Origin: Pseudonocardia sulfidoxydans NBRC 16205
Lineage (GTDB): Bacteria > Actinomycetota > Actinomycetes > Mycobacteriales > Pseudonocardiaceae
Reading direction: 5' to 3'
Length of the DNA: 64,000 bases
NCBI RefSeq assembly: GCF_007989085.1
Contig: NZ_BJVJ01000001.1
Span: forward strand, 62,001-126,000
The stretch's first letter is position 1; each line of letters begins with the position of its first letter. The translations under genes were made by a program, and so were the position numbers. The notes under the pieces are model-generated. The model was not told where the DNA came from, searched no databases, and was given only the letters and a program-made list of their open reading frames with translations. Below, in pieces: positions 23,478 through 46,486 of this stretch.

Positions 23478-24232
23478 GACGCGATCGTAGAGGCCCCGAC
23501 CGACGAGCCGGCCCCGGCGAGCAGCGTGCCCGCGCCGGGCAGCCGGGGATCCAGGTCCAGCGCCCGCAGCAGCGAGAAGGCACCCGCCGTCGCGGCCGAC
23601 AGCACCGGAAGGCCGAACTCCGCCTCGGCGGGGGCCACGAGGTCGAGCGAGGGCATCTGCACGCACGCCGAGATGACGAGCGCGTCGGCTCCCGCCATGG
23701 ACAGCCCGCGGGCGGCGGTCATGACCCGCTCGCCCGGGATGCAGCCGACCTCCGCGTTGTCGCCCACCTCGAGTGCCGCCCAGTCGACGACCTCGAAGCC
23801 CTCGGCCTCCAGGTAGCCGACGACCTGCTCGGCGAGCGGCCGCAGGTACGGCGTGACCAGCGCGATCCGCCGCGCGCCCAGCGCCTGCAGCCCCTCGACC
23901 AGCGCGCCGGCGCTGGACCGGACGACGGTGTCGGGCAGCTGGTCACCCACCAGGGCCTCCACGCGCTGGTGCTCCCCCGGCCCCTGCGCCATCAGCGCCA
24001 CCAGGCACGCGTAGAGCAGGGCATCGACGCCGGCGTCGGCCAGCTCGTCGACACACCGTTCACGCTGGGCGTTCATGGCACGCAGCTCCTCCGGCGAGAC
24101 GCGGTGCATCCGCATCCGGCTGCCGTGGAAGGAGAACGTCGCGTCGGCGTGCCTGGCGAGCAGCGCCGGGATCTCCGTCTCGACGGTGACGTTCGAGCTG
24201 GGGACGACCAGCCCGATGCGGTGCGGCGTCAT
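23474..24232 (-). CDS. Maleate cis-trans isomerase-like (Asp/Glu racemase superfamily)
   Basis: 252 aa, ATG 24232. The Asp/Glu racemase fold of the maleate isomerase/arylmalonate decarboxylase branch is clear: GLVVPSSNVTVETEIPALL at the start, Cys76 in LLYACLVALM and Cys190 in VISACVQMPSLD. These occupy the two catalytic-Cys positions of maleate isomerase (Cys76 matches the published numbering). It should interconvert maleate and fumarate, or a related cis-enoate, without cofactor. It is coupled to the ligase by 4 bp and has a paralogue at 45286-46071 that sits beside gentisate dioxygenase. Confidence 0.87.
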   Translation of the reverse strand: MTPHRIGLVVPSSNVTVETEIPALLARHADATFSFHGSRMRMHRVSPEELRAMNAQRERCVDELADAGVDALLYACLVALMAQGPGEHQRVEALVGDQLPDTVVRSSAGALVEGLQALGARRIALVTPYLRPLAEQVVGYLEAEGFEVVDWAALEVGDNAEVGCIPGERVMTAARGLSMAGADALVISACVQMPSLDLVAPAEAEFGLPVLSAATAGAFSLLRALDLDPRLPGAGTLLAGAGSSVGASTIAS

Positions 24233-25878: not shown

Positions 25879-27362
25879 CGCTCCTCCGTGAGCACGATGT
25901 GGTCCATCCTGCCGCTGACCAGCGCGGCGGCCAGGTCGTCACGCAGGGCGGCGGGCGCGGCGACGGCCACCTGCACCCCTGCCTCACGCCGTACCCGCTC
26001 GGCGAGATCGGTACGGGTGAGGACGGCGGGCCGGTCCGCGGCCCCGGTGAGGACGACGGCCCCGGTGCCGGCGGCGGCGCGGGCGACGATCGCGTCCCCC
26101 TCGGGAGACCAGGGGTCGTCGAGGTCGGCGTGGAGCTCCCGCATCGCGGCGGGGGCCGGGCGGGTGCGGTCGAGCACCCAGTCGGTGATCGCGCCCGCGG
26201 GTGGGGGGCCGTCGCCGCCGTACTGCGTGAGCGCTGCGGCGACGACGTCCGGTGCGGTGCTCGCGAACCGTTCGAGGGGCACGTTCCCCGCCCGGGACAT
26301 GTAGGCGACCATGAGCCGCTCGACGGGCAGGTCGAGCCGGTCGGGGAACGACTCCCACCACAGCCGGCTGCGCCGCGCGAGCTCCTGCAGCCGCTCGACC
26401 GACGGTCTGCGGACGCGTTCGTAGCGGGCGAACGCCGCGGCGCGGTCGGGCTCCTCGCGCAGCGCGTCGACGAGCCCGATCGCGTCCTCCATGGCGAGCT
26501 TGGTGCCCGAGCCGATGGAGAAGTGCGCGGTGTGGGCGGCGTCGCCGAGCAGCACGGTGCGCCCGTCGGACCAGCGGTCACAGCGGACCGTGCGGAACCG
26601 CAACCAGCGGGTGCGGTTGCCGATCAGCCGGTGCCCGCGCAGCGTGCCGGCGAACGCGTCCTGCAGGTACCGCAACGAGGTGTCGTCGGAGGCGTCGGTC
26701 GCGTCCGTGGTGGCGTCGAAGCCTGCGCGCCGCCACGTCGCCTCGTCGGTCTCGATGAGGAAGGTGCTCGTGCCCGTCGCACCGGCGCCGGAGTACGGGT
26801 ATGCGTGGGTGACGAACACGCCGTGCTCGGTGCGGACCGGGGCGAACACGGCGTCGTCGAGGGCGAAGTCGGTGCCGCACCACAGGTAGAGCCCGCGGCC
26901 GACGTCGATCGACGCGCCGAAGTCGCCCGCCTCGCGGGTGGCGCTGCCGACCCCGTCCGCGGCGACGACGACCTCGGCGTCCAGGTCCGCGGCCGCACGA
27001 CGGTCACCGAAGCGGAGGTCGACCCCGGCCTTCTCGGCGTGCCGCTGCAGGACGGCCAGCAGCTCGGTGCGGGCGATCCCGACGAGCCGGTCGTTGCGCA
27101 CGCGCGCGATGCCCCCGTCGACGGTCATCGTCATGTCGTGGCGCAGCCCGGCGGCGACGATCTCGCGCAGGGTGTCGGGGTCGGCGGCCTCCAGCTTGCG
27201 CTGCGTCCCCGCGGCGAGTCCGACCCCGAAGCCGAACGTCGTGTCGGGCTCACCCTGCTCGTGCAGGACCACCTCGCACCCGGGGTTCGCGAGCTTCAGC
27301 AGTCGTGCGGCGTAGAGCCCGCCCGGTCCACCGCCGAGCACCGCGACGCGATGCAGATCCAT
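25875..27362 (-). CDS. FAD monooxygenase, salicylyl-CoA 5-hydroxylase-like, lacking a full reductase domain
   Basis: 495 aa, ATG 27362 after GGAGGT. FAD-binding motif GGGPGGLY is at residues 10-17, and LLGDAAHTAHFSIGSGTK is the second flavin motif. These and the flanking sequence match the monooxygenase domain of the two-domain salicylyl-CoA/2-aminobenzoyl-CoA hydroxylases, including the 748-aa protein at 40977-43223. Here the old-yellow-enzyme barrel is missing. The last 43 residues (LAERVRREAGVQVAV...GRMDHIVLTEER) still align with the end of that barrel (LAERIRHDAGVPVIA...GRADLVAVGRAM). It probably hydroxylates an aryl-CoA made by the adjacent ligase. Confidence 0.87.
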   Translation of the reverse strand: MDLHRVAVLGGGPGGLYAARLLKLANPGCEVVLHEQGEPDTTFGFGVGLAAGTQRKLEAADPDTLREIVAAGLRHDMTMTVDGGIARVRNDRLVGIARTELLAVLQRHAEKAGVDLRFGDRRAAADLDAEVVVAADGVGSATREAGDFGASIDVGRGLYLWCGTDFALDDAVFAPVRTEHGVFVTHAYPYSGAGATGTSTFLIETDEATWRRAGFDATTDATDASDDTSLRYLQDAFAGTLRGHRLIGNRTRWLRFRTVRCDRWSDGRTVLLGDAAHTAHFSIGSGTKLAMEDAIGLVDALREEPDRAAAFARYERVRRPSVERLQELARRSRLWWESFPDRLDLPVERLMVAYMSRAGNVPLERFASTAPDVVAAALTQYGGDGPPPAGAITDWVLDRTRPAPAAMRELHADLDDPWSPEGDAIVARAAAGTGAVVLTGAADRPAVLTRTDLAERVRREAGVQVAVAAPAALRDDLAAALVSGRMDHIVLTEER

Positions 27363-27568: not shown

Positions 27569-29665
27569 ATGGCCTATGTCATCGGCGTGGACGTGGGCGG
27601 CACGTTCACCGATGCCGTGCTCGACGACGACGCCGGCACCGTGCTCGCCGCGAAGTCCCCCTCGACCCCGCCCGACTACTCCCGCGGCGTCCTCGACGTG
27701 CTCGGGCTGCTCGCCGAGCAGCTCGGCCGGACGCTGCCGGAGATGCTGGCCGACACCCACCACATCGCGCACGGCACGACCTCGTCGCTCAATGCGCTCG
27801 TGACCGGTGACGTACCGCCCGTCGGGTTCCTCACCACCAAGGGCCACCGCGACTCGATCTACATCATGAACGTCGAGGGCCGCTACCTGGGCCGCTCACC
27901 GCACGAGCTGCAGCACGTCCTCGGCCAGGCCAAGGACCACTCCCTCCTGCCCAAGCGGCACGCCCTGGAGGTCACCGAGCGCATCGACCGCGACGGGACC
28001 GTCGTCGTCGCCCTCGACGAGGACGAGGCCCGGGCGGCGATCCGCGCCCTGCTCGCCGACGGCGTGAAGGCGATCGCGGTCTCGCTGCTGTGGTCGTTCC
28101 GCAACCCGGTGCACGAGCGCCGGCTGCGCGAGCTCATCGCCGAGGAGGCACCCGACCTGTTCGTGGCGCTGTCGTCGGAGGTCAGCCCCCGCATCCGGGA
28201 GTTCGCCCGCAACGCCACCACGATCATGAGCACCCAGATCGGGCCCGGCCTGCGCGACTACCTCGGCACGCTCGAGTCGTCGTTGCGCGACAACGGCCTC
28301 ACCGGCCCGCTGCTCGTCATGCAGTCCAACGGTGGCGCCGTCGCGGCCGCCCAGGCCCCGGCGACCGCGATCAGCACGGTCGGGTCGGTCCTGACCGGCG
28401 GCGTCGTGGGATCGGTCGCGCTCGGCCGACAGCTCGGGCACCGCGACATCATCTCCACCGACGTCGGCGGCACGACGTTCCTGGCCGGGCTGATCGTCGA
28501 CGGCGAACCGGTGCGCGACACCACCACGGTGATCAACCACCACCCCATCAACGTGCCCACCCTGCACGTCGACGCCATCGGTTCCGGCGGCGGCGCCATC
28601 GCCTGGCTCGACGCGGGCGGCAACCTGCGGATCGGCCCGCGCAGCGCGCAGGCCGTCCCCGGCCCCGCCTGCTACGGCAACGGCGGCACCGAGCCCACCA
28701 ACACCGACGCCAACCTCGTCCTCGGCATCCTGCCCGAGCGGGGCCTGCTCGGCGGGCGCAAACCGCTGTCGCTGGACCTGGCGCGCCAGGCCATCGACAC
28801 CCAGATCGCCAAACCGCTGGGCCTCACCGTCGAGGAGGCCGCCGCGGCCATCTACACGGTGCAGAACGCGCAGACCGGTGACCTGCTGCGCAAGACCGTC
28901 GTCGAGGCGGGCCACGACCCGCGCGACTTCGTGCTCTACGCCTTCGGCGGTGCCGGCCCCGCGCACTGCGCCGGGTACGCGGCCGAGGTGGGCTGCGACG
29001 AGGTCGTCGTCCCGCTCGGGCCGGTGGCGTCGGCGTTCTCCGCCTTCGGGCTGGCGTCGAGCGACATCGTGCTGGCCGCCGAGCTGTCCGACCCCACCGT
29101 CGTCCCGTTCGATCCGCAGCGCGCGGAACGCAACTTCGCCGACCTCGAGAAGCGCGTCCGCGACGGCCTGGAACGCCAGGGCGTCACGTTCGAGACCGTC
29201 GAGCTGTTCCGCGAGGTCGACATGCGGTACTCGATGCAGCTGGCCGAGGTCACCGCGCCGGTGGCCGACGGCCCGCTGGACGTGGCGGCGATCGAGGACG
29301 CGGCGGCCGCGTTCGAGGCCCGTTACGCCGAGCTGTTCGGCAAGGACGCCGGGTTCCGCGAGGCCGGCATCCAGGCCATCACCTTCCGCGTCCGCGGCGT
29401 CGGGGTGCTGCCGTTCAGCCCGAAACTTCCCGAGATCCCGCCCGCGGAGTCCGACGCGACCCCGACGACCACGCGCCCGGTCCAGCTCGACGCCCGCCTC
29501 GGCTACGTCGACACGCCGATCTACGACTACCGCGAGCTGCGCGCGGGCCACGTCCTCACCGGTCCGGCGATCGTCGAGGTGCCCACCACGACCGTCGTCG
29601 TCCCCGGCGGCACCACCGGGACCGTCGACCACCTCGGCAACCTCACGATCCGCAGGAGTGCTTGA
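27569..29665 (+). CDS. Hydantoinase A/oxoprolinase-type ATPase subunit (HyuA/acetone carboxylase beta-like)
   Basis: 698 aa, ATG after GAAGGAG. The N-terminal Hydant_A_N domain begins VIGVDVGGTFTDAVLDDDAG (ASKHA phosphate loop). HIAHGTTSSLNAL, RIREFARNATTIMST, then STDVGGTTFLAGL (second phosphate motif) and AFGGAGPAHCAGYAAEVG follow. This is the ATP-using subunit of N-methylhydantoinase, 5-oxoprolinase and acetone/acetophenone carboxylases. It phosphorylates a carbonyl or amide to drive ring opening or carboxylation. The gene one base downstream is the partner subunit, whose zinc-ribbon tail favours a carboxylase (inference). Divergent from the hydroxylase operon. Confidence 0.9.
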   Translation: MAYVIGVDVGGTFTDAVLDDDAGTVLAAKSPSTPPDYSRGVLDVLGLLAEQLGRTLPEMLADTHHIAHGTTSSLNALVTGDVPPVGFLTTKGHRDSIYIMNVEGRYLGRSPHELQHVLGQAKDHSLLPKRHALEVTERIDRDGTVVVALDEDEARAAIRALLADGVKAIAVSLLWSFRNPVHERRLRELIAEEAPDLFVALSSEVSPRIREFARNATTIMSTQIGPGLRDYLGTLESSLRDNGLTGPLLVMQSNGGAVAAAQAPATAISTVGSVLTGGVVGSVALGRQLGHRDIISTDVGGTTFLAGLIVDGEPVRDTTTVINHHPINVPTLHVDAIGSGGGAIAWLDAGGNLRIGPRSAQAVPGPACYGNGGTEPTNTDANLVLGILPERGLLGGRKPLSLDLARQAIDTQIAKPLGLTVEEAAAAIYTVQNAQTGDLLRKTVVEAGHDPRDFVLYAFGGAGPAHCAGYAAEVGCDEVVVPLGPVASAFSAFGLASSDIVLAAELSDPTVVPFDPQRAERNFADLEKRVRDGLERQGVTFETVELFREVDMRYSMQLAEVTAPVADGPLDVAAIEDAAAAFEARYAELFGKDAGFREAGIQAITFRVRGVGVLPFSPKLPEIPPAESDATPTTTRPVQLDARLGYVDTPIYDYRELRAGHVLTGPAIVEVPTTTVVVPGGTTGTVDHLGNLTIRRSA

Positions 29666-29666
29666 G

Positions 29667-31964
29667 ATGACCATGCCGATCCCCGGCTCGGAGGCCTTCT
29701 CCAGCCGTCCAGTCGACCCTTCCGAGTTGGCGAGGAGTCTCCCGTCGTCGCTCCCGGTGCACTCGGTGACCCAGGAACAGGTCGACGCCCTCGACCCGCT
29801 CACCTACGAGGTCGTCCGGCACCGCCTCTGGTCGGTGACCGACGAGATGGGCGAGGCGCTCAAGCGCATGTCCGGCTCGCCGATCGTCACCGACGCCAAC
29901 GACTTCGACTTCGCCATCTCCGACGAGCTCGGCCAGGAGGTCCAGGTCGGGCTCTACAACACCATGCTCGTCGGCGCCGTCGACCTGGCCATCTACTGGA
30001 CGCTGCGCAACCGCGCGGTCAACCCCGGCATCGAGGCCGGCGACATGTTCCTCACCAACGACCCCTGGGTCGGCGGCGGGCTGCACCAGAACGACGTCAT
30101 GGTCTACCAGCCGGTGTTCCACGACGGGAAGCTGTTCGCCTGGACCAGCGCCATCGCCCACCAGCCCGACCTGGGCGGCGTCGGCCTCGGCTCCTTCTCC
30201 CCCGCAGCGCAGGACGTGTTTTCCGAGTCCCTGCCCACCCCACCGGTCAAGGTCGTGCGCGGCGGGCAGCTCCAGCGCGACGTCGCCGACCTGTGGGTCC
30301 GCCGCTCCCGCGTCCCCATGCTCATCGGGCTCGACCTGCGCGCCAAGATCGGCGCCAACAACGTCGGCGCCGAGCGCCTGCACGCCCTCATCGCGCAGTA
30401 CGGGCCCGACACCGTCAAGGCCGTCATGAAGCGCATGATGTCCGACGCCGAGTCCCGGCTGCGGGCCAAGCTGACCGCGCTGCCCGACGGCTCGTGGTCG
30501 GCCACCGGCTACCAGGACCAGTCCCACGAGGGCGACCGCAACCTGCACAAGATCACGGTGACGACGACGAAGTCCGGCGACCACCTGAGCTTCGACTTCA
30601 CCGGGACCGACCCGCAGGCCGGCGTCATCAACTGCACCTACGCCGGCATGCGCGGCGGCGTCATGCTCGCGCTGCTGCCGATCCTCGCCGGCGACATCCC
30701 GTGGTCGGCCGGCGGGCTCATGCGCTGCTTCGACCTCGTCACCGAGGAAGGCACGATCAACAACGCGACCTTCCCCGCCGCCGTCGGCCGCGGCCCCATC
30801 GGCCCCGCCTGGCTGACCGGCAGCCTCGTCGCCGAGTGCCTGGCCCAGATGCTCGACCGCGACCTGGAGCTCGGCAGGAACGTCCAGGCCACCTGCTGCG
30901 GCACCTGGGACACCGCCGTCATCGCGGGCCTCGACGAACGGGGCGAGCAACCGGCGCCGTTCCTCAACATCATCATGGAGCCCATGGCCGGCGGCTACGG
31001 CGCCCGCCCCCACGCCGACGGCATCGACACCGGCGGGCTCTTCTGCATCCCGATGGGCCGGGTGCCCGACGTCGAGATGACCGAGTTCCTCTACCCCGTG
31101 CTGACGTTGTGGCGGCGCGAGGAGCCCGACTCCGGCGGGCCGGGGCGGCACCGCGGCGGGCTCGGCGCATCGGTGGCGATCACCCCCCACGGCACCAGCG
31201 TCCCCATGGGGCTCGTGCTGGCGTCGGCGGGCAAGGCCGTCGCGCAGAACGCCGGCCTGTCCGGCGGGCACCCGGGCAACAGCGGCCTCGACGTCGTCGC
31301 CCGGCGCAGCCGCGTCGCCGAGCTGCTGGCCGCGGGCCGGATGCCGTCGGACCTCGCCGAGATCAGCGACACGCTCGAACCCGGCCAGAACTACGCGTCG
31401 AGCTACCTCGCGCCCGGCGAGGTGTTCGCGATGACCTGGCAGGGTGGCGGCGGGTACGGCGACCCGCTCACCCGCGACCCCGCCGCCGTGGCCCGCGACC
31501 TGCGGGAGCAGAAGATCACCGCCGCGGGCGCACGCGCGGTCTACGGGGTCGTCGCGAACGGCACGGAGATCGACGACGCCGCCACCGCGGCCGAACGCGA
31601 CAGCCGGCGGACGCAGCGCCGGGACCGTTCCCGTCTGCTGGGCGAGACCCGCGGCCGGGCCGACCTCGCCGCCGCGCGGCGCCTCGACGACAACCTCGTC
31701 GAGGTGGGCGACGGCACCGTCGCCTGCCGGCACTGCTCGGAGACGTTGGGCGACAACGAGGAGCCGCTCGCCCTGGCGTTGTACGAGGGCCCGCCCACCG
31801 AGGCGGGGCCGCAGATCATCGCGACGGCCGCCGACTACGTCGACGCGCCCGTGGTGTTCCGCCAGTACTGCTGCCCGTCGTGCTGGACGGCGCTCTACTC
31901 GGCGGTGGTCCCGGCCGACCACCAGGACACCGTCGCGACACTGGGCCGCCTCACCGCGGTGTGA
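29667..31964 (+). CDS. Hydantoinase B subunit fused to acetone-carboxylase-gamma-like zinc ribbon
   Basis: 765 aa, ATG one base after the HyuA stop, with AGGAG inside the end of hyuA. Residues about 45-610 are the HyuB domain: DPLTYEVVRHRLWSVTDEMGEA, FLTNDPWVGGGLHQNDV, FDFTGTDPQAGVINCTYAGM, GGPGRHRGGLG, WQGGGGYGDP. The last 100 or so residues hold C-R-H-C, then about 40 residues later FRQYCCPSCWTALYSAVV. This C..C...CCPxC pattern with the basic-aromatic lead-in resembles the small gamma subunit of acetone/acetophenone carboxylases. Together with HyuA this looks like a two-protein ATP-dependent carboxylase or amidohydrolase. The substrate is unknown. Confidence 0.88.
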   Translation: MTMPIPGSEAFSSRPVDPSELARSLPSSLPVHSVTQEQVDALDPLTYEVVRHRLWSVTDEMGEALKRMSGSPIVTDANDFDFAISDELGQEVQVGLYNTMLVGAVDLAIYWTLRNRAVNPGIEAGDMFLTNDPWVGGGLHQNDVMVYQPVFHDGKLFAWTSAIAHQPDLGGVGLGSFSPAAQDVFSESLPTPPVKVVRGGQLQRDVADLWVRRSRVPMLIGLDLRAKIGANNVGAERLHALIAQYGPDTVKAVMKRMMSDAESRLRAKLTALPDGSWSATGYQDQSHEGDRNLHKITVTTTKSGDHLSFDFTGTDPQAGVINCTYAGMRGGVMLALLPILAGDIPWSAGGLMRCFDLVTEEGTINNATFPAAVGRGPIGPAWLTGSLVAECLAQMLDRDLELGRNVQATCCGTWDTAVIAGLDERGEQPAPFLNIIMEPMAGGYGARPHADGIDTGGLFCIPMGRVPDVEMTEFLYPVLTLWRREEPDSGGPGRHRGGLGASVAITPHGTSVPMGLVLASAGKAVAQNAGLSGGHPGNSGLDVVARRSRVAELLAAGRMPSDLAEISDTLEPGQNYASSYLAPGEVFAMTWQGGGGYGDPLTRDPAAVARDLREQKITAAGARAVYGVVANGTEIDDAATAAERDSRRTQRRDRSRLLGETRGRADLAAARRLDDNLVEVGDGTVACRHCSETLGDNEEPLALALYEGPPTEAGPQIIATAADYVDAPVVFRQYCCPSCWTALYSAVVPADHQDTVATLGRLTAV

Positions 31965-37388: not shown

Positions 37389-38258
37389 GTGGCGATCGAG
37401 GACGAGGACGGCGGAGGTGCCGCGGGCCAGCCCGGCCGGCTGATCCTCACCGTGTACGGCCTGTACGCGCGCGAACGCGGCGGCTGGCTGCCCATCGCCG
37501 GGCTCGTCCGGCTGCTCGGCGAGGTCGGCATCAACGTGCAGGCCGTGCGGTCGGCGATCCACCGGCTCAAGCGGCGCGGCCTGGTCGACGCCGAACGCCG
37601 CGCCGACGCCGCCGGGTACGCCCTGTCCGACGACGCCCACGGCCTGCTCGCCGAGGGCGACGTCCGGATCTTCGGCCACACCCGAGGCGCCGCCGACGAC
37701 GGCTGGCTGCTCGTCGTGTTCTCAGTGCCCGACACCGAACGCGCCAAGCGCTACCAGCTGCGTTCGATGCTGACCCGGCTCGGCTTCGGCACCGTCTCCC
37801 CCGGCACCTGGATCGCGCCGCGGCATCTGGAGACCGCGACGGTCGAGACGCTGCAGCGGGCGGGGCTGGCCGGGTTCACGCAGGTCTTCGCCGGTCCGCA
37901 CGTCGCGGGCGGCGAGCTGGCCGAGCTCGTCGCGTCCTGGTGGGACCTCGACGGGCTCCAGGAGCTCTACGCCGACTTCCTCGACCGCTTCGAGCCGGTC
38001 GGCGCGCGGTGGCTCGCCGGCGGGGACGGCGCTGTCGACGACGCCCGCGCCTTCGTCGATCTCGTCGACATGCTCACGGCGTGGCGGCGGCTGCCCTACG
38101 CCGACCCGGGACTGCCGCTGGAGCTGCTGCCCGCGGGCTGGAACGGCGAACGCGCCCACGAGCTGTTCGCGACACTCTCGGCCCGGCTGCGCGAGCCCGC
38201 CGCCCGCCACGTCGAGGCCCTGCTCGGGCCCGCGGAGACCCTCCCGGCCGCCGGCTGA
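37389..38258 (+). CDS. PaaX-family transcriptional repressor
   Basis: 289 aa from GTG 37389. The N-terminal winged HTH runs LILTVYGLYARERGGWLPIA, GLVRLLGEVGINVQAVRSAI, HRLKRRGLVDAER. The central Cas2-like domain has DDGWLLVVFSVPDTERAKRYQLRSML and LGFGTVSPGTWIAP, and the C-terminal PaaX_C domain has DLDGLQELYADFLDRF and WRRLPYADPGLPLELLP. Members sense aryl-CoA thioesters such as phenylacetyl-CoA. Placed beside the aryl-CoA ligase/hydroxylase cluster (38354-46486), it is the best candidate regulator of that cluster, sensing the aryl-CoA. That link is inference. Confidence 0.92.
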   Translation: MAIEDEDGGGAAGQPGRLILTVYGLYARERGGWLPIAGLVRLLGEVGINVQAVRSAIHRLKRRGLVDAERRADAAGYALSDDAHGLLAEGDVRIFGHTRGAADDGWLLVVFSVPDTERAKRYQLRSMLTRLGFGTVSPGTWIAPRHLETATVETLQRAGLAGFTQVFAGPHVAGGELAELVASWWDLDGLQELYADFLDRFEPVGARWLAGGDGAVDDARAFVDLVDMLTAWRRLPYADPGLPLELLPAGWNGERAHELFATLSARLREPAARHVEALLGPAETLPAAG

Positions 38259-38353: not shown

Positions 38354-39994
38354 TCATGCCGTGGCGGCTGCGCGAGGGGTCGGGTGGGCGGCCGGGGCCT
38401 CGGGCTCGGTGGGCGACGCGGCCGCCCGTTCGCGTAGAGCGACCCGGAGCAGCTTGCCGGAGGCGTTGCGCGGCAACGCATCCACGAACTCGACCCGACG
38501 CGGGTACTTGTACGGCGCCCCGACGGCCTTGACGTGGTCCTGCAGCGCCCGCGCGGTCGCCGGACCGGGAACAGCTCCCTCGCGGAGCACGACGAACGCC
38601 GTCACGACCGCCCCGCGCTCCGGATCCGGGGTCCCGACCACACCGGACTCGACGACGTCGGGATGGGTGGCCAGCAGCTCCTCCACCTCCGGCCCGGCGA
38701 TGTTGTACCCCGACGAGACGATCATGTCGTCGGCCCGCGCGACGTGATGGAACCAGCCCTCGGCGTCACGCACGTAGACGTCACCGGTGAGGTTCCAGCC
38801 GCCGCGCACGTAGTCGCGCTGACGTGGGTCGTCGAGGTAGCGGCACCCCGTCGGGCCCTTCACCGCCAGCAGGCCGGGCGTCCCGTCGGGCACCGGGCGG
38901 CCGTCGACGTCGTGCACCTCGGCCCGGAAACCGGGGACGACCCGGCCGGTGGCCCCAGGACGGGCGTCGTCGTCGGCCGCCGAGATGAACACGTGCAACA
39001 TCTCCGTGCCGCCGATACCGTCGATCAACGACCGCCCGACGACCTCGCGGTAACGCACCGCGACCTCCGCGGGCAGCGCCTCCCCCGCCGACACCGCGCG
39101 CCGCACCCCCGCGAGCAGATGCCCGACACCGGCATCGAGGATCGTCCGGTACGCCGTCGGCGCAGTGAACAGGACCGTCACCCCCTGCTCGGCCGCGATC
39201 GCCGCCAGCTCGGTGGGCGTCGCCCGCTCCACCAGCAGCACCGACGCCCCCGCCCGCAACGGGAACACCAACAGCCCACCCAGCCCGAAGGTGAACGCGA
39301 GCGGCGGCGTCCCGGCGAACACGTCGTCGGGCCGGGGCTTGAGCACGTGCGCGGAGAACGTGTCGGCGATCGCGAGCACGTCGCGGTGGACATGCATCGT
39401 CGCCTTCGGACGCCCCGTCGTGCCGGAGGTGAACGCCAGCAGCGCGACGTCGTCGGCAGCAGTGGCGACGTCCGGGAACGTCACCGGGTGCGCGGCGCAA
39501 CGGGCCTGCAGGTCCGTCCCGAACGACACCACCGCCACCTCGGGCGGGAGCTCGTCGAGGAACCGTTCGTCGCACAACGCGACGGCGGGACGGGCCGTCG
39601 CGTTGATCTTGTCGAGCTCGTGACGGCGCAGCAGCGGCATCGTCGCGACGGCGACCGCCCCGGCCTTGAGGACGGCGAGCCAGCACGCCGCGAGCCACGG
39701 CGTGTTCGGCCCGCGGAGCAGGACCCGGTTACCGGGGACGACACCGAGGTCGGCGGTGAGGACGTGCGCGATGCGGTTCGCGCGGGCGAGGACGTCGCCG
39801 TAGGTCCAGGTCTCGCCGGGCGAGCCCAGACACGGGCGGTCGGCGCCGAACCGCGCGATCGTGTCGTCGATCAGCGCGGTCGCTGCGTTGAGCTGCTGTG
39901 GGTACTGCAGCTCGGGAAGGTCGAACACGAACTCGGGCTGCTGGTCGGCCGGTGGCAGCCCGTCGCGGCAGAACGTGTCGACATGGGCGGTCAT
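38354..39994 (-). CDS. Benzoate-CoA ligase-family aryl-CoA ligase
   Basis: 546 aa, ATG 39994 overlapping the nitrilase stop. Adenylate-forming motifs are LLAFTSGTTGRPKATMHVHRD (A3), GIGGTEMLHVFIS (A5), WNLTGDVYVRDAEGWFHHV (A7), RADDMIVSSGYNIAGPEVEE (A8) and the A10 Lys in RNASGKLLRVALR. The wording at A5 and A8 is that of benzoate/2-aminobenzoate/hydroxybenzoate-CoA ligases. It should activate the aryl acid produced by the nitrilase for the CoA-dependent hydroxylase encoded first in this operon. It is the last gene of the leftward unit. Confidence 0.9.
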   Translation of the reverse strand: MTAHVDTFCRDGLPPADQQPEFVFDLPELQYPQQLNAATALIDDTIARFGADRPCLGSPGETWTYGDVLARANRIAHVLTADLGVVPGNRVLLRGPNTPWLAACWLAVLKAGAVAVATMPLLRRHELDKINATARPAVALCDERFLDELPPEVAVVSFGTDLQARCAAHPVTFPDVATAADDVALLAFTSGTTGRPKATMHVHRDVLAIADTFSAHVLKPRPDDVFAGTPPLAFTFGLGGLLVFPLRAGASVLLVERATPTELAAIAAEQGVTVLFTAPTAYRTILDAGVGHLLAGVRRAVSAGEALPAEVAVRYREVVGRSLIDGIGGTEMLHVFISAADDDARPGATGRVVPGFRAEVHDVDGRPVPDGTPGLLAVKGPTGCRYLDDPRQRDYVRGGWNLTGDVYVRDAEGWFHHVARADDMIVSSGYNIAGPEVEELLATHPDVVESGVVGTPDPERGAVVTAFVVLREGAVPGPATARALQDHVKAVGAPYKYPRRVEFVDALPRNASGKLLRVALRERAAASPTEPEAPAAHPTPRAAATA

Positions 39995-40971
39995 CGGTCG
40001 GCCTCCTGACGTCCCTTCACCACGAGCGGGACCTTCGGGGTCGCGTCGAGGTGCAGCGACAACACGTCGAACCGGTTGTAGTGGCCGATGATGTCGTGCA
40101 TCTGCTTGGCCTGGATACTGCGCGCGAGGTCGATCTCGGCGTAGACGATGCCCTCGTCGTCGATCAACGGTTCGACGACCGGGCGGCCGTCGGGCCCGAA
40201 GATGCCCGACAGCGCGTTGCGGGGCCGGGACAGCTGTTTGCGGACGGTCTCGTCGTCGCCCGCGACGGCGTCGACGATCTCCTCGGACACCACCGACGTC
40301 GACACCACCGAGAAGACCTTGCCCTCGAAGGCGTGCGCGGCGGTGCGGATCGCGATGGCGTCGGCCATGTCGTAGTCCTCCGGCGCGACGGGCAGCGCGA
40401 TGTAGGACGCGACGTGGACCTGCTCGCCCTGGGCCAGCAGCGCGAACCGGGCGAGGGTGTTGGTGTTCTCCCCGCAGGCCAGCACCCCCAGCTTCCCGAC
40501 CGGCGTCTCGTGCACGACGAGCGAGCTGCCGTCGCCGCCGGTCCAGGTCAGCTTCTCCGCCCACGTCGGCACCAGCTTGCGGTGTACCCCGATCAGCTCG
40601 CCGTCCTGCGAGATCGTGAGCATCGTGTTGTAGAGGACGCCCATGCTGTGCGCGCCGCGCTCGTTCACCCCGATGACGACGGTGGCGCCGTGGCGCCGCG
40701 CCGCGTCGCGCAGGGTGTCGACCTCGGGGCCGGGGACGTCGATCGCGTTGCGGTACAGGCGTTCGAACCACGGCGAGCCCTGGACGGGGTTCATCGTCCA
40801 GTTCCAGTACGGGTAGCCGGGCACGAACGCCTCGGGGAACGCGACGAGCGTCGCACCGTTCCCGGCCGCCTCGGCGATCAGGTCGGCGGCCTTCGCGACG
40901 GTGGCCGCCGCGTCGAGGTAGACGGGTGCGGTCTGGACGGCGGCGGCGGTGAAACGCGGCAGCTCCAGCAT
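39991..40971 (-). CDS. Nitrilase
   Basis: 326 aa, ATG 40971. The carbon-nitrogen hydrolase triad is complete: Glu47 in FPEAFVPGYPYW, Lys132 in HRKLVPTWAEKL and Cys166 in LACGENTNTLARF. The size and the GYPYWNW and CGENTN wording are those of true nitrilases rather than amidases or carbamoylases. It hydrolyses a nitrile to a carboxylic acid and ammonia. Lying between the aryl-CoA ligase and the aryl-CoA hydroxylase genes (4-bp overlap and 5-bp gap), its natural substrate is probably an aromatic nitrile feeding this pathway (inference). Confidence 0.93.
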   Translation of the reverse strand: MLELPRFTAAAVQTAPVYLDAAATVAKAADLIAEAAGNGATLVAFPEAFVPGYPYWNWTMNPVQGSPWFERLYRNAIDVPGPEVDTLRDAARRHGATVVIGVNERGAHSMGVLYNTMLTISQDGELIGVHRKLVPTWAEKLTWTGGDGSSLVVHETPVGKLGVLACGENTNTLARFALLAQGEQVHVASYIALPVAPEDYDMADAIAIRTAAHAFEGKVFSVVSTSVVSEEIVDAVAGDDETVRKQLSRPRNALSGIFGPDGRPVVEPLIDDEGIVYAEIDLARSIQAKQMHDIIGHYNRFDVLSLHLDATPKVPLVVKGRQEADR

Positions 40972-40976
40972 GGCGG

Positions 40977-43223
40977 TCAGCCCTTCGCGGAGGTGAGCAG
41001 CGGACGCCAGCGCCGGTGGACCGGCGCGGGCTCGGGATCGGTGAGCGTGAGCCGCGGCGGGACGCGCCGGGCGGTGGGCGGCGGGGTGGCCCCGGCGCGC
41101 AGGTGGGCGGGCCATTCGACGTCGTCCCAGCCCAGCGCGACGGCGGCGTGCAGGGCCCAGGCGGGGTCGTGCAGCATCGCCCGGCCGACGGCGACGAGGT
41201 CGGCGCGGCCGGCGAGGACGATGGAGTTGGCGTCGTCGGCGGTGGAGATGCCGCCGACCGCGATCACCGGGACGCCGGCGTCGTGGCGGATCCGCTCGGC
41301 CAGCGGGGTCTGGTAGCTGCGGCCGTAGTTGGGCCGCTGGTGGGCGACGACCTCGCCCGACGAGACGTCGACGGCGTCGGCACCGTGCTCGGCGAGGGCC
41401 CGGCTGATCTCGACAGCATCGGTCACGGTCTGCCCGCCGGGCGCGTGGTCGACCGCGGAGATGCGGACCAGCAGCGGACCCGCCCACGCGCCGCGAACGG
41501 CGTCGAGGACCAGCAGCGGGAACCGTAGCCGGTCGGCGAGTGCGCCGGGATTGGTGAGCGGCGACAGGTACGTCGACAGCAGGTGACCGTGGCCGGCGTG
41601 CAGTTCGAGCGCGTCGAACCCGGCGTCGGCGGCGCGGCGGGCGGCGGCGGCGAACGCGGCGACGACGGCGTCCTCGTCGACCGGTCCCGGCTCCGCCTCC
41701 CCGGCCCGGTACGGGACGGGCGTCGGCGCGACGGGCGCGACACCGCGGCGGCCCGCGTGGGTGAGCTGGACCCCGATCCGGGCGTCGGACGTCGCGTGGA
41801 TGCGGTCGGTGATCGCGCGCCAGGCCGCGACATGCTCATCGGACCAGAGCCCGCTGCTCTCCTTCGCGGCACGGGCATCGGGTCCGACGGCGGTCCCGCC
41901 GGTGAGCACCAGCCCCGCCCCGCCGACGGCCGCCGCGGACAGCATCAGCATCTCGGCGTCGCCGGGCACCCCGTCGCGGGCGGCGTCGACGGTGACCGGC
42001 GCGGCGACGATCCTGTTGGGCAGCAGCATGTTCGCGAGGGTGAACGGCTGGAACAGCGGCGGCGCCCCGGGCGCGAAGTGGGTGCGCACGCGCGCGGCGT
42101 AGTCGGGGTCGCGGACCGCGAGGTTGTCGAAGGTGACGCGGCGGCTGCGGGTGAGCAGGTTGAACGCGAACTGCTCCGCGTCGAGCCCGGTCACGTGGTC
42201 GACGTCGGAGAACCATTCCAGGCTCGCCTGCGCGGCCCGCTGGGTGGACTCGACGACGGGCCGGCGCTCGGCCTCGTAGGCGGCCAGCGCCGTCGGCACG
42301 TCGTCGTGGCGACGCAGCGCCGCGGCCAGTGCCAGCGAGTCCTCCATCGCGAGCTTCGTGCCCGAGCCGATGGAGAAGTGCGCGGTGTGCGCGGCGTCGC
42401 CGAGCAGCACGAGGTTGCCGTCGTGCCAGCGCCGGTTGCGAACCGTGGTGAACCGCAGCCACTTCGAGTTGTTCGCGACGAGCGCGGCACCGGCCAGCTC
42501 CTCGCGGAACAGCTCGGCGATCGCGGCGATGCTCGCCTCGTCGTTGACCCCCGGCGGCAGCGCGTCGGCGTCGACCCCGTCGAACCCCAGTGCGCGCCAG
42601 GTGTTCTCGGAGGTCTCGACGATGAACGTCGACCGCTCGTCGGAGAACGGGTAGGCGTGCACCATCAGCGCGCCGTGCGGGGTCTGCTTGGCCACGAAGG
42701 TGAACGCGTCGAGCACCCGGTCGGTGCCGAGCCACATGTAGCGGGCGCCACGGACGTCGAGGTCGGGGCCGAACACGTCGGCGTGCGCGGTGCGGATCGC
42801 GGACCGGGCGCCGTCGGCGGCGACCACGAGGTCGTACTCCGCGCGCAGCTGCTCGACGGGCGGGGCAACGGTGCGGAACCGCAGGTCGACGCCCACCTCG
42901 GCGCAGCGCTCGGCCAGCAGCTCCAGCAGCACGCGGCGGTTGATCGCGGAGAACCCGTGCCCGCCGGAGGTGACCGTCTCGCCGCGGTGCACGACGTCGA
43001 TGTCCGACCAGCGCGCGAACCGGGCCGAGACCGCGGCGAACAGGACCGGGTCGGCCTGCTCGAGCCCGTCGAGGGTCTCGTCGGAGAAGACGACGCCGAA
43101 GCCGAACGTGTCGTCGACGGCGTTGCGCTCGAACACGACGACCTCGCGCGCCGGGTCGAGCTGCTTCGCCAGCGCGGCGAGGTAGAGGCCGCCCGGACCT
43201 CCACCCACGACGGCGATCCTCAT
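40977..43223 (-). CDS. Two-domain salicylyl-CoA 5-hydroxylase-like monooxygenase/oxidoreductase
   Basis: 748 aa, ATG 43223 after GGAGTGAGG. Residues 1-390 are an FAD monooxygenase (GGGPGGLY at 7-14; LLGDAAHTAHFSIGSGTKL). Residues about 400-720 are an old-yellow-enzyme FMN barrel (LFQPFTLANMLLPNRIVAAP, GVQLTHAGRRG, LELHAGHGHLLSTYLSPLTN, VIAVGGISTADDANSI). This two-domain layout is that of salicylyl-CoA 5-hydroxylase and 2-aminobenzoyl-CoA monooxygenase/reductase. With gentisate dioxygenase divergent next door, hydroxylation of salicylyl-CoA to gentisyl-CoA is the best reading; an anthraniloyl-CoA substrate is the main alternative. Confidence 0.9.
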   Translation of the reverse strand: MRIAVVGGGPGGLYLAALAKQLDPAREVVVFERNAVDDTFGFGVVFSDETLDGLEQADPVLFAAVSARFARWSDIDVVHRGETVTSGGHGFSAINRRVLLELLAERCAEVGVDLRFRTVAPPVEQLRAEYDLVVAADGARSAIRTAHADVFGPDLDVRGARYMWLGTDRVLDAFTFVAKQTPHGALMVHAYPFSDERSTFIVETSENTWRALGFDGVDADALPPGVNDEASIAAIAELFREELAGAALVANNSKWLRFTTVRNRRWHDGNLVLLGDAAHTAHFSIGSGTKLAMEDSLALAAALRRHDDVPTALAAYEAERRPVVESTQRAAQASLEWFSDVDHVTGLDAEQFAFNLLTRSRRVTFDNLAVRDPDYAARVRTHFAPGAPPLFQPFTLANMLLPNRIVAAPVTVDAARDGVPGDAEMLMLSAAAVGGAGLVLTGGTAVGPDARAAKESSGLWSDEHVAAWRAITDRIHATSDARIGVQLTHAGRRGVAPVAPTPVPYRAGEAEPGPVDEDAVVAAFAAAARRAADAGFDALELHAGHGHLLSTYLSPLTNPGALADRLRFPLLVLDAVRGAWAGPLLVRISAVDHAPGGQTVTDAVEISRALAEHGADAVDVSSGEVVAHQRPNYGRSYQTPLAERIRHDAGVPVIAVGGISTADDANSIVLAGRADLVAVGRAMLHDPAWALHAAVALGWDDVEWPAHLRAGATPPPTARRVPPRLTLTDPEPAPVHRRWRPLLTSAKG

Positions 43224-43326
43224 ATTCCTCACTCCTGACGCTGGTTGAGTGGACGCAACATTAGCATCTGTTGCTGTCGTCGAAAAGACGCTATGTTGAG
43301 TCGGCGACGAGAGACGAGGAGACGTG
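43224..43326. promoter_or_regulatory. Divergent promoter/operator of the gentisate cluster
   Basis: A dyad GCAACA (43255-43260)-N8-TGTTGC (43269-43274) lies midway between the two starts. TGTTGC followed after 17 bp by TATGTT (43292-43297) is a candidate plus promoter. On the minus strand TTTTCG-N17-TAATGT (43286 down to 43258) is possible. Two direct GTTGAGT copies (43244-43250 and 43295-43301) flank the dyad. Binding at the dyad would cover both promoters; PaaX (37389) is the nearest regulator candidate. Confidence 0.5.
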
Positions 43327-44439
43327 ATGACCGACCTGAGTGACGACGTCCTCGGGCGTGCCCGCGTGCGCGACACCGCGGAGCTGGAGGCCTACTACCG
43401 CCGTCTCGAGGACCTCGAGGCCGGCGCCCTGTGGAAGATCGCCAACAAGATCGAGCCCTGGTACCCGCAGCCGCGCTCACGCCCGATGCTGTGGCGCTAC
43501 GCCGACCTGCGCCCCCTCGTGCTGGAGGCACTCGGCCTGGTCAGCGGCGACGACGCCGGCCGCCGCGTCGTCGCGCTCTACAACCCCGACCTGCGCGACA
43601 TCGCCGCCACCTGCGGGCTGCTCTACACCGGACTGCAGGTCATGGCCCCCGGCGAGTCCATGACCGCGCACCGCCACCAGGCGTCGGCACTGCGGTTCGT
43701 GCTCGAAGGCGAGGGGGCCTGGACGATCGTCGACGGACAGAAGCTCAAGGTCGGCCCCCGCGACTTCGCGATCACCCCGAACTGGACGTGGCACGAGCAC
43801 GGCAACGAGGGCCTCGAGTCCGAGGGCGCCGTGATCTGGCAGGACGGACTCGACATCCCACTGGTCAACGCCCTGGACGCCCCGTTCTACGAGGTGCACC
43901 CCGACGTCTACCAGAAGCAGGACGGCGTCACGAACTCGTCGGTGCTCACCTACGGCGCCGGCCAGCTACGGCCCGTCGGCGACCCGTGGGACAAGCGGTA
44001 CTCACCGCTGACCGCCTACCCGTGGGAGCCCACCTACGAGGCGCTGCAGAACGCGGCGCAGGCGTCGGACGGCTCGCCCTACGACGGCATCATCATGGAG
44101 TACTCCAACCCGCTGACCGGCGGATCCGTCATGCCGACGATGAGCGCGCACATGCAGATGCTGCGCCCCGGCGAGCGGACGCTGGCCCACCGCCAGGTCG
44201 GCTCGCAGGTCTACACCGCAGCCAAAGGCTCGGGCCACACGATCATCAACGGGGTCCACTACGACTGGACCGAGGGCGACATCTTCGCCATCCCGTCGTG
44301 GGCCTGGCACGAGCACGCCAACGCGAGCACGTCCGACGACGCGTGCCTGTTCTCGTTCACCGACTTCCCGGTGATGCGCTCGCTCGGCTTCTACCGCGAA
44401 GAGGCCTACGCCGACAACGACGGCCACCAGACCGTCTGA
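43327..44439 (+). CDS. Gentisate 1,2-dioxygenase
   Basis: 370 aa; ATG 43327 is chosen for its spacing from GAGGAG (GTG 43324 would add one residue). A bicupin with the Fe-binding site in the N-terminal cupin: ESMTAHRHQASALRFVLEGE and the later NWTWHEHGNEG. The second cupin has RTLAHRQVGSQVYTAAKGSG and SWAWHEHAN. LYNPDLRDIAATCGLLYTGLQVMAPGE and the N-terminal LWKIANKIEPWYP are characteristic of gentisate dioxygenases. It cleaves gentisate between the carboxyl- and hydroxyl-bearing carbons to maleylpyruvate. First gene of a four-gene rightward unit. Confidence 0.94.
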   Translation: MTDLSDDVLGRARVRDTAELEAYYRRLEDLEAGALWKIANKIEPWYPQPRSRPMLWRYADLRPLVLEALGLVSGDDAGRRVVALYNPDLRDIAATCGLLYTGLQVMAPGESMTAHRHQASALRFVLEGEGAWTIVDGQKLKVGPRDFAITPNWTWHEHGNEGLESEGAVIWQDGLDIPLVNALDAPFYEVHPDVYQKQDGVTNSSVLTYGAGQLRPVGDPWDKRYSPLTAYPWEPTYEALQNAAQASDGSPYDGIIMEYSNPLTGGSVMPTMSAHMQMLRPGERTLAHRQVGSQVYTAAKGSGHTIINGVHYDWTEGDIFAIPSWAWHEHANASTSDDACLFSFTDFPVMRSLGFYREEAYADNDGHQTV

Positions 44440-44452
44440 AAGGGAACCTCCC

Positions 44453-45289
44453 ATGCTCCTGGTCACCTTCTCCGTCGACGGTGGTCCGCCCCGGCCCGGC
44501 GCCCTGGACGGCGACGAGGTCGTGGACCTGTCCGCGCACGTCACCGACCTGCGCGGGCTGTTCGGCGCGGCGCTCCCGCCCCTCGACGGCCCGCGCGTCG
44601 CACGCGACTCCGTGCAGCTGCACGCCCCGTTCCGCCCCGGGAAGATCGTCGGGGTCGGGCTCAACTACGTCGAACACGTCGACGAGTCGGCCCGCACCCT
44701 CGACACCCACAAGGAGCTGCCGACGCGCCCGGTCCTGTTCTCGAAACCCGCGACCGCGATCGTCGGGCCCGGGGAGCCGATCCTGCACGACGGCACCCTC
44801 ACCGAGCAGCTCGACTGGGAGTGCGAGCTCGCCGTCGTCATCGGGCGGGCCGCGCGGAAGGTGTCCCGCGAGGACGCGCTCACCCACGTGTTCGGATACT
44901 CGATCGTCAACGACATCTCCGCCCGCGACCAACGCCGCTCCGGGCAGTGGTTCTTCTCCAAGGGCCAGGACTCCTACGCCCCCTTCGGCCCCGCCGTCCG
45001 CACCGCCGACGAGGTCCCCGACCCGCAGGCCCTCGCCCTCGGGCTGAAGGTCAACGACGAGGTCAAGCAGAAGGGCAACACCGCCCACATGCTGTTCACC
45101 GTCGCCGAACTGATCGCCGACATCTCTTCCGGCATGACCCTCGAACCCGGCGACGTCATCGCCACCGGCTCACCCCAGGGCGTCGGCGCGGCCCAGAACC
45201 CGCCACAGTTCCTGCGCCCCGGCGACGTCGTCGAGGCGACCGTCGAGGGCATCGGGACCCTGCGCAACCCGGTGGTCGACGCCCGATGA
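44453..45289 (+). CDS. Fumarylacetoacetate hydrolase-family protein (fumaryl/maleylpyruvate hydrolase)
   Basis: 278 aa, ATG after AAGGGA. The FAH fold with KIVGVGLNYVEHVDES, PVLFSKPATAIVGPGEPI and metal acids in DWECELAVVIGRAARKVS is clear. GYSIVNDISARDQRR and GDVIATGSPQGVG are hallmarks. In gentisate clusters this enzyme splits fumarylpyruvate, or maleylpyruvate directly, into pyruvate and fumarate or maleate. The choice between the two depends on the isomerase-like gene that overlaps its end by 4 bp. Confidence 0.92.
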   Translation: MLLVTFSVDGGPPRPGALDGDEVVDLSAHVTDLRGLFGAALPPLDGPRVARDSVQLHAPFRPGKIVGVGLNYVEHVDESARTLDTHKELPTRPVLFSKPATAIVGPGEPILHDGTLTEQLDWECELAVVIGRAARKVSREDALTHVFGYSIVNDISARDQRRSGQWFFSKGQDSYAPFGPAVRTADEVPDPQALALGLKVNDEVKQKGNTAHMLFTVAELIADISSGMTLEPGDVIATGSPQGVGAAQNPPQFLRPGDVVEATVEGIGTLRNPVVDAR

Positions 45290-46071
45290 GCCGTCCCTTC
45301 CGGATCGGCCAGATCGTCCCCAGCTCCAACGTGACGATGGAGACCGAGATCCCGGCGCTGCTACGGGCGCGCGAAACCGTCGCGCCCGAGCGGTTCACGT
45401 TCCACTCCAGCCGGATGCGCATGACCCGGGTGACCGCCGACGAACTGGCTGCGATGGACGGCGAGTCCGACCGCTGCGCCGTCGAGCTCTCCGACGCCCG
45501 CGTCGACGTCCTCGGCTACGCCTGCCTCGTCGCGATCATGAGCATGGGACCGGGCTACCACCGCGAGTCGCAACGCCGGCTGCACGCGCGGACCGTCGAC
45601 AACGGCGGACCAGCACCCGTCGTGACCAGCGCCGGAGCGCTCGTCGACGGGCTGCGGGTACTCGACGCCCGGCGGATCGTGCTCATCGCGCCGTACCTGC
45701 CCGAGCTGACCCGCACCGTCGTCGACTACATCGAGGCCGAAGGCGTCGACGTGCTCGACCACCGCGCGCTCGGCGTGCCCGACAACCTCGACGTCGCCGC
45801 GCTCGACCCGCGCGGGCTGATCACGCACGCGCAGGAGCTGGACCGGTCCGACGCCGACGCCGTCGTTCTCTCGGCATGCGTCCAGATGCCCTCGCTCGAC
45901 GTGATCGACGAGGTGCAGCAGCTGCTGGGCAAACCGGTGCTGTCGGCGGCCGTCGCGACGACCCACCGCATGCTGCGGGCACTCGACCTGCCCGCGGTCG
46001 CGCCCCTCGGTGGCGCGCTGCTCGGCGGCGGGTACGCGCTGGCCGACCCGCCCGCCACGGTCGCCCTGTGA
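45286..46071 (+). CDS. Maleate isomerase-like protein (Asp/Glu racemase superfamily)
   Basis: 261 aa, ATG 45286 overlapping the FAH stop. GQIVPSSNVTMETEIPALL, Cys80 in LGYACLVAIM and Cys198 in VLSACVQMPSLD give the two-Cys architecture of cofactor-free maleate cis-trans isomerases. It is paralogous to the protein at 23474-24232. In this operon it takes the place usually held by a glutathione- or mycothiol-dependent maleylpyruvate isomerase. It could isomerise maleylpyruvate itself, or convert maleate released by direct hydrolysis of maleylpyruvate into fumarate. Both are inference. Confidence 0.87.
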   Translation: MSRPFRIGQIVPSSNVTMETEIPALLRARETVAPERFTFHSSRMRMTRVTADELAAMDGESDRCAVELSDARVDVLGYACLVAIMSMGPGYHRESQRRLHARTVDNGGPAPVVTSAGALVDGLRVLDARRIVLIAPYLPELTRTVVDYIEAEGVDVLDHRALGVPDNLDVAALDPRGLITHAQELDRSDADAVVLSACVQMPSLDVIDEVQQLLGKPVLSAAVATTHRMLRALDLPAVAPLGGALLGGGYALADPPATVAL

Positions 46072-46084
46072 CGGGGGCGCCCCC

Positions 46085-46486
46085 GTGACCGCGGCCGCGA
46101 CCCGGCCCACCGTCACGATCCGGCGGACGGTCGAGTGGTCCGACACCGACGCGTCGGGGCACTACTACAACGGTGTCGTCCTGCGCTGGGTCGAGGCGGC
46201 CGAGGCCGAACTGCTCGGCCGGCTCGGTCTCGCCGGCCTCTTCGGCCGCATCCCGCGGGTCCGCTACGAGGCCGACTTCCGCGCCCGGCTGTGGTTCGGC
46301 GACGCGGTCGACATCGACCTGACGATCGGACACGTCGGCACCACGTCGATGCGCTACGACTTCGAGGTCCGCTCCGGATCCACGATCGCCGCGGCCGGGT
46401 CGACGACGGTCGTCAACGCCACGCCCGACGCCCCGGCCGCGACCCCGTGGCCCGACGACGTACGGGCCACCCTGGCAGGCGGCTGA
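46085..46486 (+). CDS. Hotdog-fold acyl-CoA thioesterase (4HBT-like)
   Basis: 133 aa, GTG 46085. The 4-hydroxybenzoyl-CoA thioesterase-type motif RTVEWSDTDASGHYYNGVVLRWVE has the active-site Asp (around 20-22) at the head of the long helix. VRYEADFRARLWFGDAVDID forms the following strands. As last gene of the gentisate unit it is well suited to hydrolyse gentisyl-CoA to gentisate plus CoA. That is exactly the step needed between the CoA-ester hydroxylase and gentisate dioxygenase. The motif is seen in the sequence; the substrate is inferred from context. Confidence 0.87.
   Translation: MTAAATRPTVTIRRTVEWSDTDASGHYYNGVVLRWVEAAEAELLGRLGLAGLFGRIPRVRYEADFRARLWFGDAVDIDLTIGHVGTTSMRYDFEVRSGSTIAAAGSTTVVNATPDAPAATPWPDDVRATLAGG

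Follow-up and report, generated by a model that had tools for sequence, protein, structure and literature searches.

In the 2-aminobenzoyl-coenzyme A (CoA) pathway of Azoarcus evansii and Arthrobacter Rue61a, a ligase and a two-domain monooxygenase/reductase act on a CoA thioester, and the ring is reduced (PMC4539516, PMC3534580). The sdg pathway of Streptomyces WA46 combines CoA activation, 5-hydroxylation and gentisate-type cleavage (PMC4600096), and Nocardia opaca was described to convert anthranilate to 5-hydroxyanthranilate (Cain 1968, via the review PMC4539516). A related cluster is located in a stretch of 64,000 nucleotides from Pseudonocardia sulfidoxydans NBRC 16205 (contig NZ_BJVJ01000001.1, positions 62,001 to 126,000; hereafter the window), comprising genes for an aryl-CoA ligase (LIG), a two-domain hydroxylase (HYD), a nitrilase-superfamily protein (NIT), a member of the gentisate 1,2-dioxygenase family (GDO), an FAH-family hydrolase (FAH), a maleate cis-trans isomerase (AMD) and a hotdog thioesterase (TE). 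Compared to the 2-aminobenzoyl-CoA pathway, HYD has lost its reductase residues, and the cluster includes a ring-cleaving dioxygenase; compared to the sdg type, the difference lies in NIT and the maleate isomerase, both being found in none of 20 ordinary GDO loci (WA46 not among them). Furthermore, the Nocardia opaca route goes on to gentisate in the review, whereas direct cleavage yielding an amide is proposed here. With moderate confidence, we read the cluster, from comparison of its sequences, as degrading anthranilate (2-aminobenzoate, a product of tryptophan), the nitrogen being lost as an amide after cleavage between C1 and C2. It would represent a variant of aromatic CoA and gentisate pathways already known, in which a clade of nitrilases is a candidate for a new function.

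To evaluate the recurrence of the cluster, genome contigs were scanned with a two-sequence NIT alignment, yielding 447 places encoding a NIT relative, the best 80 of which were examined with flanks of up to 10 kb per side, several being ended by contig ends. GDO was present in all 80 loci, followed by FAH (78), HYD and TE (73 each), LIG (71), AMD (70) and a PaaX-type regulator (62); HYD lay within 400 bases of NIT in 69 loci and GDO in 60. The closest named NIT relatives, 92 and 94% identical, both reside in Pseudonocardia. Since the cluster recurs in several actinobacterial genera and on proteobacterial plasmids, the grouping is not a product of chance. A survey of 345 genomes of the class detected NIT-clade genes (at least 69% identity; next at 45%) in five, all of them adjoining, by coordinates, the GDO of the NIT-linked clade, which was itself found (at least 58% identity) in seven genomes. 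Of the two GDOs lacking NIT, one (L216) is situated close to a contig end, at a distance of about 300 bases, and the other (L217) has no NIT within 15 kb; the latter adjoins a gene resembling pyridoxal phosphate-dependent decarboxylases (L217:6996-9862). In one genus represented by 392 genomes, 24 carry NIT at 72-81% identity, only G216 of these having been read in place. A genome of Rhodococcus opacus, presumably the organism formerly called Nocardia opaca, has the cluster (L135), and two NIT loci each were seen in Embleya scabrispora DSM 41855 (L100, L109) and Kitasatospora sp. A2-31 (L142, L143).

The first-pass annotation had placed NIT at the beginning of the pathway, hydrolysing an aromatic nitrile (e.g., 2-hydroxybenzonitrile) to salicylate, which would then pass through salicylyl-CoA and gentisyl-CoA to gentisate. 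This entry agrees with the solved nitrilases nearest to NIT (8uxu, E 1e-68), with the arrangement of NIT as if co-transcribed with LIG and HYD, and with the best family match of HYD, salicylyl-CoA 5-hydroxylase/oxidoreductase, which remains under cut-off. The neighbourhood survey suggested by that annotation confirmed that the unit recurs, but NIT was found to follow GDO, FAH and AMD. No HYD was found in seven of the 80 loci (L100, L129, L132, L136, L141, L144, and L148), all of which contain GDO; in L129, L132, and L136, contig ends less than 3 kb from NIT on one side limit the HYD absence. Among plasmid records, nine NIT relatives had 60-80% identity, and a further 167 fell below this range. 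Seven of the nine loci (proteobacterial or Embleya) were examined, and each encoded NIT, GDO, FAH and AMD, HYD being present in one of them only (Caballeronia, L150); in the two lower-identity loci examined (Polaromonas and Salinigranum), no GDO was nearby. NIT travels with the ring-cleavage module of GDO, FAH and AMD, even where HYD and LIG are missing. None of the 20 ordinary GDO loci contains it either, including seven with a reductase-less flavin monooxygenase (FMO) that would suit salicylyl-CoA. A search for aldoxime dehydratase (PF13816) gave no match in the own genome and none in any control genome either. We consider a nitrile as starting compound very unlikely.

The motifs of NIT point in the same direction. 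The protein belongs to the CN_hydrolase fold family (PF00795, 152 bits), and its FPE, HRK and CGE motifs, which we take to hold the catalytic Glu-Lys-Cys residues, align with those of solved nitrilases. The usual Trp after the catalytic Cys (CWE) is missing: of 120 loci with at least 60% identity, among which some genomes are represented twice, 119 have CGEN, whereas the five solved relatives compared have CWE (four) or CAE (one). Among 22 remoter relatives, 13 have CWEN or CWEH and three CGEN, and six were not read by the pattern. Two CGEN relatives without a nearby GDO are located at L152:8968-10044 (49%, Salinigranum) and L153:9001-10026 (56%, Polaromonas). Motif and linkage together make it more likely that NIT takes nitrogen from an opened aminobenzoate ring than that it starts a nitrile pathway. 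As far as the open-access literature searched was accessible, a dedicated nitrilase in such a cluster is not described there, in agreement with the first-pass annotation.

Comparison of loci sharing only part of these genes distinguished three kinds of cluster. Kind C is that of the window, i.e., HYD together with GDO and NIT. Kind B comprises unlinked HYD and was represented by 22 loci (21 of 28 genomes with wide flanks, plus a second copy in G216 with short flanks), encoding LIG in 22, PaaX in 19 and a RidA family protein in 18, and GDO, NIT or AMD in none. RidA occurred in only one of the 80 linked loci (L141, 35% identity, a locus without HYD); a Fisher value of 3e-15 for RidA takes no account of relatedness. 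Kind A, the ordinary GDO, was examined at 20 of the 37 other GDO places flanked by about 6 kb per side; 16 of these 20 loci had FAH, none had NIT, AMD or RidA, and two further ordinary GDO loci of the own genome (L261, L262) lack NIT and AMD, too. The three kinds could be accounted for by nitrogen removal: RidA, whose family acts on enamines and imines, suits a reduced aminocyclohexene, NIT occurs where an amino-substituted ring would be cleaved, and the ordinary GDO has neither. These data also bear on the possibility that the cluster converts salicylyl-CoA to gentisate and that NIT is unrelated or accessory. For Streptomyces WA46, a CoA route leading from salicylate to gentisate has indeed been described (PMC4600096). 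However, the linkage of NIT and GDO spans phyla, and HYD is a two-domain enzyme, whereas the FMOs resembling its front half in seven of the 20 kind A loci lack the OYE domain in all seven cases, so that this explanation appears to be the least probable of those considered here.

A second line of evidence is the state of HYD, which is similar to enzymes hydroxylating and subsequently reducing an aryl-CoA. Residues were counted from tblastn alignments of 76 linked copies (73 of the 80 loci, L009 representing the window itself, L010, and L150) and 28 unlinked copies (L011-L038), the latter from genomes without a NIT-clade gene in the class survey; positions are given in YqjM numbering. Tyr169 is kept in all 28 unlinked copies and in one linked copy (L150), being replaced in the other 75 by His (56), Phe (10), Gln (5), Asn (3) or Arg (1). 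His164 is likewise kept in all unlinked copies and in five linked ones (the window, L069, L070, L071, and L099), the other 71 having Gln, and His167 is retained throughout. In the window HYD, His164 is present, position 169 is His instead of Tyr, and the segment following SPLTN is incomplete relative to most homologues. Linked HYDs are therefore without the intact set of OYE-type catalytic residues. In the monooxygenase half, 19 of 24 positions around the GDAAH motif are invariant in all 104 sequences.

A quick tree built from 64 rows of the monooxygenase half requires two changes of the linkage label, each of them forced by starred branches, and likewise two for the loss of Tyr. One concerns the large linked group; the other concerns L212 and L213, placed within the unlinked group next to the sister L215, which has Tyr. 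In L212, HYD lies 8 kb away from NIT. For the large linked group, the tree does not fix which way the change went. The genome G216 holds both the linked and the unlinked kind. The first-pass annotation had regarded HYD as a salicylyl-CoA enzyme, an assignment it would itself give up for a hydroxylase acting only on anthraniloyl-CoA, and it is anthraniloyl-CoA that the comparison favours as the probable substrate. The two-domain enzyme was reported to yield 5-hydroxyanthraniloyl-CoA when short of NADH (PMC3534580).

In the proposed pathway, LIG would activate anthranilate to anthraniloyl-CoA, which HYD would hydroxylate to 5-hydroxyanthraniloyl-CoA; the ring would remain aromatic because the reductase half is disabled. 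TE would then free 5-hydroxyanthranilate from CoA. LIG and TE are same-strand neighbours in 56 loci and form a single open frame in 37 of them (also at L010:3774-5264), so that CoA seems to serve as a handle for a limited time. The bond split by gentisate dioxygenases joins C1 to C2, which bears the hydroxyl group and becomes a carboxylate. As C2 of 5-hydroxyanthranilate carries NH2 rather than OH, cleavage by GDO at the same site should, on chemical grounds, give a carboxamide, maleamylpyruvate. NIT would act as amidase either on maleamylpyruvate, before FAH releases pyruvate, or afterwards on maleamate, and AMD would convert maleate to fumarate. CoA activation, 5-hydroxylation at the CoA level, thioester release, gentisate-type cleavage and the step from maleate to fumarate were already outlined in the first-pass annotation and are retained here; the nitrile as entry is not.

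Support for the individual steps differs. AMD is firmly assigned, on sequence grounds, as a maleate cis-trans isomerase, its best solved relatives being enzymes of this name (4fq7, E 5e-96) and both catalytic Cys motifs being present, including the SACVQM cysteine (alanine in 4fq5). A maleate isomerase of this family also operates at the maleamate end of nicotine and nicotinate degradation, where hydrolysis of the amide precedes it; the amidase of that route comes from another family, whereas a protein of the nitrilase branch is proposed here. FAH is presumably a maleylpyruvate (or maleamylpyruvate) hydrolase, as the maleylpyruvate hydrolase 6jvv (E 1e-37) is among its solved relatives, albeit not the closest. 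The best solved relatives of LIG are an anthranilate-CoA ligase (4wv3, 247 bits) and a benzoate-CoA ligase (2v7b, 243 bits). Reading its specificity from these scores was dropped, since the two lie about 4 bits apart, and anthranilate is inferred as its substrate.

GDO has the bicupin structure and the SDO/GDO substrate residues. In a quick tree of 61 GDOs, 36 NIT-linked sequences fall into one starred group, together with three unlinked rows (L216, L217, and the very long-branched L192, identical with kind A locus L259), and 22 ordinary GDOs stand apart. At position 104, the NIT-linked clade has Tyr or Phe, and ordinary GDOs mostly have Trp. Eleven catalytic or binding positions, compared using a published list of substrate-binding residues (PMC11264262), are identical in all 89 clade GDOs and all 22 ordinary ones, and the active site was dropped as a discriminator between gentisate and 5-hydroxyanthranilate. 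In Ruegeria pomeroyi, SPO_RS20405, the gene directly after the NIT orthologue (Table 1), encodes the sequence of 3bu7 over its full length.

Alternatively, 5-hydroxyanthranilate could be deaminated to gentisate, by NIT or another enzyme, before GDO cleaves the ring. The residues of GDO fit gentisate, 3bu7 carries the name of a gentisate dioxygenase, and the review of Cain's work lists gentisate after 5-hydroxyanthranilate (PMC4539516). An argument against early deamination is the maleate isomerase, which occurs in 70 of the 80 linked loci and is absent from the other gentisate loci examined. Moreover, we know of no aromatic amine hydrolysis by the nitrilase superfamily, which was counted against this alternative, and we consider it unlikely.

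Several points weigh against anthranilate degradation with late loss of nitrogen. Every substrate, as well as the amidase activity of NIT, is deduced from the observed gene content, linkage, residue losses and clades. The catalytic residues of GDO cannot tell gentisate from 5-hydroxyanthranilate, 3bu7, from the same clade and encoded beside NIT, was deposited as gentisate dioxygenase, and the closest solved relatives of NIT bear the names of nitrilases or cyanide-degrading enzymes. CGEN also occurs in the three remoter relatives, the two of them read having no GDO nearby. The HYD of L150 has Tyr169 although it is linked, and two independent losses are too few for significance in a sign test. 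The review lets the Nocardia opaca route pass through gentisate, which puts the loss of nitrogen before ring cleavage (PMC4539516). Finally, L100 and L129 are the sole loci among the 80 with tryptophan dioxygenase or kynureninase (tblastn) and, being alike, count as one observation, and loci without HYD, LIG and kynureninase leave 5-hydroxyanthranilate without evident source.

With regard to tryptophan, the module in L100 is accompanied by kynureninase (above cut-off), tryptophan 2,3-dioxygenase (above the Pfam cut-off), an amino-acid permease and an AraC regulator (AndR model, under cut-off), and L129 has tryptophan dioxygenase. In the own genome, the genes for tryptophan dioxygenase and kynureninase are adjacent to each other on a separate contig. 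Indolepyruvate oxidoreductase is annotated among the proteobacterial neighbours in L149, L150, L155, and L156, and a cyclase family near the module in L150, L155, and L156, two scanned members of which match arylformamidase far under cut-off. Frames resembling indolepyruvate oxidoreductase by eye also lie beside the cluster at L122:2-2677 and L127:2318-4096. The iad auxin locus was considered as a counterpart of this module and rejected: its final product is anthranilic acid (PMC12633357), and nitrilase is mentioned in the accessible text neither of that paper nor of PMC10374108. As a tentative generalization, somewhat more doubtful than the pathway itself, the GDO-linked CGEN nitrilases may be maleamylpyruvate or maleamate amidases that arose inside the nitrilase branch and the linked GDOs, including 3bu7, 5-hydroxyanthranilate 1,2-dioxygenases. 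The module would then serve anthranilate in Actinomycetota and, in the absence of an encoded hydroxylase, 5-hydroxylated compounds from the breakdown of tryptophan or indole.

The seven genes named in the first-pass annotation were recovered with recomputed gene ends and family matches, and form two tight divergent operons (Table 1). The minus-strand order is HYD, NIT, LIG, with NIT starting 5 bases past the HYD stop and overlapping LIG by 4 bases. A PaaX-type regulator gene missing from the earlier list adjoins LIG; its true start is probably about 60 bases upstream of 37440, and its product probably senses an aryl-CoA. The divergent promoter region holds an 11-base block (43284-43294) identical across five Pseudonocardia sequences; inverted repeats were also seen. 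No RNA elements were found at gathering threshold in the section of the window from 36 to 48 kb. NCBIfam scores stayed under cut-off for the hydroxylase (897/1078 bits), the dioxygenase (309/442) and the Nit6803-family nitrilase (242/503), and the named functions therefore assign no substrates. Elsewhere in the window (24229-27359, minus strand), a second ligase resembling 2,3-dihydroxybenzoyl-AMP ligases (under cut-off) overlaps an OYE-less FMO that resembles HYD in its front half, with genes for hydantoinase A and B next to them (27569-31964, plus strand); this group is perhaps another aryl-CoA hydroxylation unit.

Table 1. Location of the cluster genes and associated features (window positions unless a locus is given).
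Feature	Position	Strand	Basis
PaaX-type transcriptional regulator (homology span)	37440..38258	+	PF07848, PF20803, PF08223
LIG, aryl-CoA ligase	38354..39994	-	PF00501/PF13193
NIT, nitrilase-superfamily protein, CGEN catalytic motif	39991..40971	-	PF00795; linkage; motif
HYD, two-domain hydroxylase (FAD monooxygenase half and degenerate OYE-type reductase half)	40977..43223	-	PF01494 + PF00724
Divergent promoter region between HYD and GDO	43224..43326	.	sequence comparison
GDO, gentisate 1,2-dioxygenase family, clade of PDB 3bu7	43327..44439	+	PF07883/TIGR02272
FAH-family hydrolase	44453..45289	+	PF01557
AMD, maleate cis-trans isomerase	45286..46071	+	PF17645; solved relatives
TE, hotdog thioesterase, GTG start chosen	46085..46486	+	PF13279
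NIT orthologue and 3bu7 gene, Ruegeria pomeroyi DSS-3 megaplasmid	L149:9001-11169

Searches of the open-access literature, within its accessible parts, did not retrieve a description of genes for 5-hydroxyanthranilate ring cleavage. If the proposed pathway is true, the cluster would supply candidate genes for the anthranilate pathway of 1968, which is not tied to genes in the literature searched. It would also add an amidase to the nitrilase branch, present a bifunctional enzyme repurposed through switching off one half, and, for many genomes, correct names such as salicylyl-CoA hydroxylase, gentisate dioxygenase and carbon-nitrogen hydrolase. The three kinds of cluster predict opposite modes of nitrogen removal, and the proposal is hence directly testable.

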